Source: Candidatus Bathyarchaeota archaeon
GTDB lineage: Archaea > Thermoproteota > Bathyarchaeia > Bathyarchaeales > DTEX01
DNA length: 32,294 bases
Reading direction: 5' to 3'
Assembly (NCBI GenBank): GCA_018396405.1
Contig: JAGTQD010000010.1
Location: forward strand, 1 to 32,294
The position numbers were made by a program, and so were the translations under genes. Position 1 is the stretch's first letter. The number at the start of each line of letters is the position of its first letter. A model generated the notes under the pieces. That model made no database searches. It saw nothing but the letters and a program-made list of their open reading frames with translations, and had not been told where the DNA came from. Shown in pieces: positions 9,072-9,948 of this stretch.

Positions 9072-9758
9072 ATGCTTGCGAGAAAAGCCGCATTCATAGG
9101 AATTTTTGCTTCTCTTCACATAATATTATATCTTATGCCGTTTGAGCTATGGCGCAACTGGGCAATTTATCTTGAGCCCATCGAGGGCATTGTTCTTGGT
9201 CCTTGGGCTGGCTTTACATCAGCATTTATAGGCAGCGTGGTCGCTAGAATAATTAAGCCCACAGATTTTTGGATGTTTGGAATAACTGCTGAGCCAATAG
9301 GGGCTTTAACTGCGGGGCTTCTTGCCAAAGGGAACTGGAGGTCAGTCATAGCCATTTATGGCGTAATGCTTTCAGCATACTTTATACATCCGCTTGGAAG
9401 AGAACTTCCATTATGGGCTATAATAGATATATTCATTGCGCTTGTCCTAATTTACCCAGTAGCAAAAATCGGTAGAAGAATCTATAATGAGGATTCAAAG
9501 CATCTAACTGTGCCTTTGGCTCTAATATCTTTTATATCGACGGCGACAGATTCTTTGGTGAGAATTTTTCTCTTTATCCCAGCGGGTCTCTTCTCCTTTT
9601 TTGGTCTAACAACCGAGGCGGTATACGCTATCTTCATAGCCGGAGCAATAAGCTCATACATAGAGGACATATTGGTAGTGATAGTCTCCTTAATAGTAGG
9701 TATCCCAATACTTCTGTCCATGAAGAAGATTCAAGGCTTCAAGATCCCATTAAGCTAA
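9072..9758 (+). CDS. Multi-spanning membrane protein, ECF transporter S-component-like
   Basis: ~228 aa, about 6 TM segments; AAFIGIFASLHIILYLMPFELW...GIVLGPWAGFTSAFIGSVVARII. Confidence 0.5.
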   Translation: MLARKAAFIGIFASLHIILYLMPFELWRNWAIYLEPIEGIVLGPWAGFTSAFIGSVVARIIKPTDFWMFGITAEPIGALTAGLLAKGNWRSVIAIYGVMLSAYFIHPLGRELPLWAIIDIFIALVLIYPVAKIGRRIYNEDSKHLTVPLALISFISTATDSLVRIFLFIPAGLFSFFGLTTEAVYAIFIAGAISSYIEDILVVIVSLIVGIPILLSMKKIQGFKIPLS

Positions 9759-9795
9759 AGCTGACAGAAAACTTAAAAATAGCAGAGTAGCAAGA

Positions 9796-9807
9796 AAATA
9801 TTTAATT
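9796..9807 (+). promoter_or_regulatory. TATA-like box A for the permuted tRNA transcript
   Basis: aaaatatttaatt-type AT-rich motif about 25-40 nt upstream of the BHB-forming leader. Confidence 0.4.
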
Positions 9808-9835: not shown

Positions 9836-9948
9836 GCTCCAGCGCAGAAAGCCGGAGGTCGGGGGTTCAAATCCCCCCGGGTCCGCCAACAAACGTATTG
9901 GACCCGTGGTCTAGCCAGGATTATGACGTCGGCCTGCGGAGCTGGGGC
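9836..9948 (+). other. Bulge-helix-bulge (hBHBh') splicing motif formed by the outer flanks of the permuted tRNA
   Basis: Outer helix 9836-9843 GCTCCAGC : 9941-9948 GCTGGGGC (8 bp, one G.U); bulge GGA 9938-9940; central helix CTGC 9934-9937 : GCAG 9844-9847; bulge AAA 9848-9850; then the anticodon stem. Predicted cuts GG^A (after 9939) and AA^A (after 9849). Confidence 0.92.
9850..9939 (+). tRNA. Circularly permuted tRNA-Arg(GCG): 3' half (9850-9885 + encoded CCA 9886-9888), 11-nt linker (9889-9899), 5' half (9900-9939)
   Basis: Acceptor GGACCCG(9900-9906):CGGGTCC(9878-9884) 7/7 bp; T-arm GGGGG-TTCAAAT-CCCCC; anticodon stem TCGGC(9929-9933):GCCGG(9851-9855); D-arm GTCT-AGCCAGGATTA-TGAC; T8/A14, G15/C48, G18G19/T55C56, A20 and G73 present; spliced loop CTGCGGA gives anticodon GCG. 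Confidence 0.93.

Follow-up and report, generated by a model that had tools for sequence, protein, structure and literature searches.

We analyzed a stretch of 32,294 nucleotides from the genome of a Candidatus Bathyarchaeota archaeon (hereafter the window). Positions 9836-9948 were confirmed to be a circularly permuted gene for tRNA-Arg with the anticodon GCG. By sequence inspection, the 3′ half comes first, and the 5′ half follows on the same strand after a spacer of 11 nt. The initial annotation had reported this order, with the 3′ half before the 5′ half, and had expected that ordinary linear tRNA searches would miss the gene. The features of the locus are given below, where BHB denotes a bulge-helix-bulge motif and MFE the minimum free energy.

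9795-9805, + strand: TATA-like box AAAATATTTAA, likely the single promoter; similar elements occur in the orthologues
9836-9847, + strand: BHB leader strand, consisting of the outer helix GCTCCAGC (9836-9843) and the central 4-bp helix GCAG (9844-9847), from the MFE fold and covariation
9848-9850, + strand: 3-nt bulge AAA, open in the MFE fold; predicted cut at 9849/9850, on the 5′ side of position 38
9850-9888, + strand: 3′ half of tRNA-Arg(GCG), positions 38-76 with an encoded CCA, from the sequence and the reordered ARAGORN call
9889-9899, + strand: intervening sequence ACAAACGTATT, a loop closing the acceptor stem; 9-34 nt across 13 orthologues
9900-9939, + strand: 5′ half of tRNA-Arg(GCG), positions 1-37 with CTGCGG as the last letters, from the sequence and the reordered ARAGORN call
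9938-9940, + strand: 3-nt bulge GGA, open in the MFE fold; predicted cut at 9939/9940, on the 3′ side of position 37
9941-9948, + strand: BHB outer-helix trailer strand GCTGGGGC, which pairs with 9836-9843, from covariation

The anticodon GCG lies at 9936-9938 (+), and the 3′ half (9850-9888) reads AGCCGG AGGTC GGGGG TTCAAAT CCCCC CGGGTCC G CCA. Submitted to ARAGORN in the reordered form, 9900-9939 followed by 9850-9888, the gene was called as a 79-nt tRNA-Arg(gcg) in which the acceptor and T stems are perfect. Neither the native order nor a flipped control was called as a tRNA, and the window as written gave no tRNA with either ARAGORN or Rfam. Hence the expected blindness of linear searches was borne out, and the permuted order itself is upheld by a call obtained solely after reordering, by the BHB ends, and by its recurrence in 13 genomes. 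Additionally, a scan for permuted tRNAs under strict geometric criteria returned one site in the window, which is this gene, and the same scan returned no site in 60 first-order Markov windows.

The gene displays the characters of permuted genes, namely the order of the halves on one strand with a short spacer, a complete fold after reordering, and a terminal BHB at the junction. The positions of the bulges place the splice between nucleotides 37 and 38, as in type II genes. The T-arm is uninterrupted (9861-9877), and therefore a Thermofilum-type T-loop junction at 59/60 is absent. From the earlier structural description, the halves and the perfect acceptor and T stems stood; it had missed the U.U at D-stem pair 13-22, which is the same in 3 of 13 orthologues, and the pairing of the flanks 9836-9847 and 9934-9948, the decisive feature, which forms the splice site.

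Splice Signal and Conservation

The ends of the gene follow the layout of a canonical hBHBh′ motif: an 8-bp outer helix, a 3-nt bulge, a 4-bp helix, a 3-nt bulge, and the anticodon stem. The partner strand of the central helix, CTGC at 9934-9937, lies inside the end of the 5′ half. In the MFE fold of the precursor, 4 of 4 central pairs and 8 of 8 outer pairs were formed, and both bulges were open. With cut positions derived from the standard BHB rule, the bulges are predicted to set the splice exactly at 37/38.

When relatives, all of them draft assemblies, were searched at the DNA level, permuted homologues of full length were obtained in 13 of the 21 genomes of one Bathyarchaeia family, distributed over two genera. 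Genus g1 comprises ten carriers (G000-G007, G009, and G010, G000 being the genome of the window), and genus g5 comprises three (G016, G018, and G019). By RpoB, the nearest named genomes are Candidatus Bathyarchaeota MAGs, which bears out the archaeal source assumed in the initial annotation. Carriers with names are JZ-2_2_bin_4.3.1 (L061, genome G003) and QZM_A2_bin_23 (L066, genome G001). None of the 13 permuted orthologues has a disrupted acceptor, anticodon, or T stem, and the acceptor and anticodon stems are invariant. The mature parts are almost unchanged, and the spacers vary freely in sequence and length (9-34 nt).

Across the 13 species, all eight pairs of the outer helix are variable, 99% of the cells are paired, and three pairs show compensatory two-sided changes. 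The covariation score of the BHB helix was higher than 500 of 500 shuffles and higher than every slid control. Because the covarying leader/trailer helix is absent from the mature tRNA, selection appears to act on splicing. A regular expression found TTTATA/ATTTAA-like elements approximately 37-44 nt 5′ of the leader helix in 11 of the 13 orthologues; in G018 and G019, AAAGATTTATGA was recognized by eye at the corresponding upstream position. No TATA-like element was noted in the spacer across the orthologues. Judged by these comparisons of sequence, the gene is a conserved feature, neither a relic nor a misassembly.

A precursor covariance model, R1, scored the 13 permuted genes at 131-150 bits. 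The next best match was 65 bits over samples of 163 genomes of the order, 257 of the class, and 398 of the phylum; the model was built on 37/38 Arg genes and 8-20 candidates were scored per genome, so other junction types would escape it. The R1 matches of 30-65 bits were considered as further permuted tRNAs, and those inspected proved to be linear, either intron-rich tRNAs or tandem genes whose adjacent ends look like a permuted acceptor stem. Linear, intronless tRNA-Arg(GCG) genes were found in the family members G008, G011, G012, and G015 and in genomes of other families.

Decoding, Processing, and Rival Explanations

The initial annotation had named a second intact tRNA-Arg(GCG), together with a lack of RNA reads across the junction, as the mark of a relic. 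A search with the reordered tRNA found no such gene in the genome of the window, and linear tRNA-Arg(GCG) genes were likewise not found in the 13 genomes with the permuted form. The full-length linear homologues detected there, considered as a hidden second copy, turned out to be Arg(CCU). Archaea decode both CGC and CGU with a GCG anticodon, and CGC and CGT together account for 74 of 5326 codons in 12 genes of the window. Since both codons are used, GCG reads both, and no other copy was found, the cell probably depends on the permuted gene; judging from the assembly, this gene probably encodes the only tRNA of the genome for CGC/CGU. Ordinary tRNA finders are blind to the gene, and consequently such genomes will be reported without a CGC/CGU decoder.

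Other tRNAs of the family harbor introns. The tRNA-Arg(CCU) at G000:C70:2350-2442 (L025, L161) has a 15-nt anticodon-loop intron and is intronless in the congeners checked, and many tRNAs (L182, L191, L199, L201, L214, L228, and others) have anticodon-loop and apparent D-loop introns. ARAGORN miscalls or misses the intron-bearing tRNAs of the family, for example a Trp tRNA with an 89-nt intron.

The genome of the window has two splicing-endonuclease genes. EndA alpha could be aligned with catalytic subunits of archaea and keeps the Tyr, His, and Lys. EndA beta, whose sequence was taken from the congener G002, could be aligned with the M. jannaschii enzyme but has no such His. By these alignments, the alpha/beta pair is as in two-subunit enzymes. 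RtcB and an archaeal RNase P RNA are also present in the genome. In genus g1, the gene of the non-catalytic subunit, EndA beta, lies approximately 2.5-3.5 kb upstream of tRNA-Arg(GCG), in permuted and linear species alike (L269, L270, L271, L260, L261, and L265, in G002, G010, G007, G006, G009, and G008, respectively).

The best explanation overall, in which we place high confidence, is a functional type II permuted gene that supplies the sole CGC/CGU tRNA, is spliced through a circle, and likely had a single origin. Its processing can be modelled on the order of the algal permuted-tRNA pathway (PMC3978253). A single transcript from the upstream TATA-like box would contain the leader, 3′ half, spacer, 5′ half, and trailer, in which the leader and trailer pair as the canonical hBHBh′, as folding and covariation show. 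Following the algal pathway and the enzymes present, the alpha/beta splicing endonuclease would cut both bulges, and RtcB would ligate G37 to A38; the product would be an RNA circle with the spacer as the loop closing the acceptor stem. Excision of the spacer by RNase P and a 3′ endonuclease would then free G1 at the 5′ end and the encoded CCA at the 3′ end.

Four points weigh against this explanation. Transcription, circle formation, splicing, and aminoacylation are steps that we infer at the RNA level. The central helix is absent from the MFE fold in 2 of the 13 precursors, owing to a mismatch in G018 and an alternative fold in G016. In the family genomes G013, G014, G017, and G020, the GCG gene was detected in neither form. 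Finally, the assembly of the window's genome is 95.6% complete in 108 contigs, and for this genome alone a linear copy might lie in a gap.

A split tRNA, with halves that are transcribed separately and spliced in trans through this BHB, is very unlikely. The motif is equally suited to trans-splicing, and archaeal split tRNAs joined at 37/38 are known (PMC3218864). However, the halves lie 9-34 nt apart on one strand in 13 of 13 genomes, a room too small for a promoter and a leader, and they remain adjacent despite large rearrangements around the locus; moreover, the sole conserved TATA-like element lies upstream of the 3′ half. A relic or pseudogene, that is, a scrambled remnant with a working tRNA elsewhere, is barely credible. 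The gene is known from DNA alone and the assembly is incomplete, which leaves this reading some room, but the three stems intact in all 13 species, the covarying BHB ends, which already largely refute it, and the lack of a linear GCG copy in any permuted genome argue against it. An assembly artefact that swapped the halves, which the initial annotation had raised, is next to impossible. In its favor, all genomes involved are drafts; against it, the same order of the halves recurs in 13 genomes that were assembled independently, with differing spacers and differing, covarying BHB helices, some on contigs longer than 100 kb.

Comparison with Known Systems

By 2014, 34 permuted tRNAs were known, 32 of them algal and two in Thermofilum pendens (PMC3978253, PMC3218864). 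The T. pendens genes encode iMet and Tyr with the junction at 59/60 (PMC3218864, PMC3978253); thus, the initial annotation rightly gave this species as the known archaeal case, but the junctions there are not of the 37/38 type. The later papers found still give T. pendens as the archaeal example. The T. pendens genes share with the Bathyarchaeia gene the archaeal host, the encoded CCA, the terminal BHB, and the proposal of a single upstream promoter. They differ in the T-loop junction, in an additional 37/38 intron in both, in spacers of 7 and 1 nt, and in their restriction to one species.

Type II 37/38 permuted tRNAs occur in algae, namely Cyanidioschyzon, Ostreococcus, Micromonas, and the Bigelowiella nucleomorph (PMC3978253). 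These also have the 3′ half first on one strand, a short intervening sequence, a terminal BHB, and the 37/38 junction, whereas the Bathyarchaeia gene is archaeal, has its CCA encoded, and is conserved over two genera. The tRNA-Arg(GCG) is absent from the 2014 table, in which the algal Arg cases are CCT and TCT (PMC3978253).

The permuted signal recognition particle (SRP) RNA of Thermoproteus (PMC4731332) is likewise archaeal, with BHB termini cut by the splicing endonuclease and joined to a circle; however, the SRP RNA stays circular (PMC4731332), and a tRNA has to be cut open again at its acceptor stem. Archaeal split tRNAs, such as the Aeropyrum tRNA-Asp(GUC) (PMC3218864), also have two BHB-ended halves joined at 37/38, but their halves are in separate transcripts, whereas the Bathyarchaeia gene would give one reversed transcript.

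In the literature search, from which subscription papers and preprints were mostly outside, permuted tRNAs were not paired with Bathyarchaeota. As far as seen, this is the first permuted tRNA in the class Bathyarchaeia and the first archaeal one of the 37/38 type, and its clade-wide occurrence is unusual for an archaeal permuted tRNA. For Archaea, it adds the 37/38 type, a new isotype, and a set of 13 permuted species with 4 linear relatives, whose comparison can now test the age of permuted genes (old versus recent) and their mode of formation.

Linear and Permuted Forms within the Family

The permuted gene lies 3′ of the same gene cluster in G002, G006, G007, G009, and G010, and G008, which belongs to the same genus by RpoB, has a linear gene after that same cluster. 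The linear locus of G008 and the permuted locus of G006 correspond on both flanks, and the tRNA halves of one align with those of the other in exchanged order. The permuted mature sequences of g1 and g5 form one cluster, apart from the linear ones of the family, and the G008 linear gene is nearest to that of G012, with 3 differences. Furthermore, the BHB outer strands of the two genera are near-identical; G005 and G018 share GACTCCAGC.

On these sequence relationships, one origin in the family, followed by loss or linear replacement in some lines, is most likely. Two independent origins in g1 and g5 fit worse with the joint clustering and the near-identical outer strands, and a transfer of the permuted gene between the two genera is conceivable. 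The RpoB tree gives no preference, as three changes are needed whether one assumes a single gain and two losses or two gains and a single loss. We consider it rather probable that the whole lineage keeps a needed CGC/CGU tRNA in permuted form and that one locus switched between linear and permuted in situ within a genus, as in G008 (linear) and in G006 and others (permuted). If this holds, local recombination in present-day archaea creates or undoes the permuted order, which is then no leftover from ancient times.

A scan of the fetched loci for an intron-bearing linear Arg(GCG) as the BHB donor found none resembling the leader/trailer. L306, from another order of the class (G186), is a linear tRNA-Arg(GCG) for which ARAGORN gave a 24-nt intron, and a further insert follows CCTGCGG by eye. 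By this sequence, introns in tRNA-Arg(GCG) exist within the class; the L306 gene is a possible model of the permuted gene's ancestor, with an origin that may have been the duplication of an intron gene.

In the window, an ECF-transporter-like gene (9072-9758, + strand) stands directly upstream of the permuted tRNA, replacing the gene cluster of the congeners. In G016 of genus g5, a homologue of this gene is located at a distance of 2.6 kb from the permuted tRNA.
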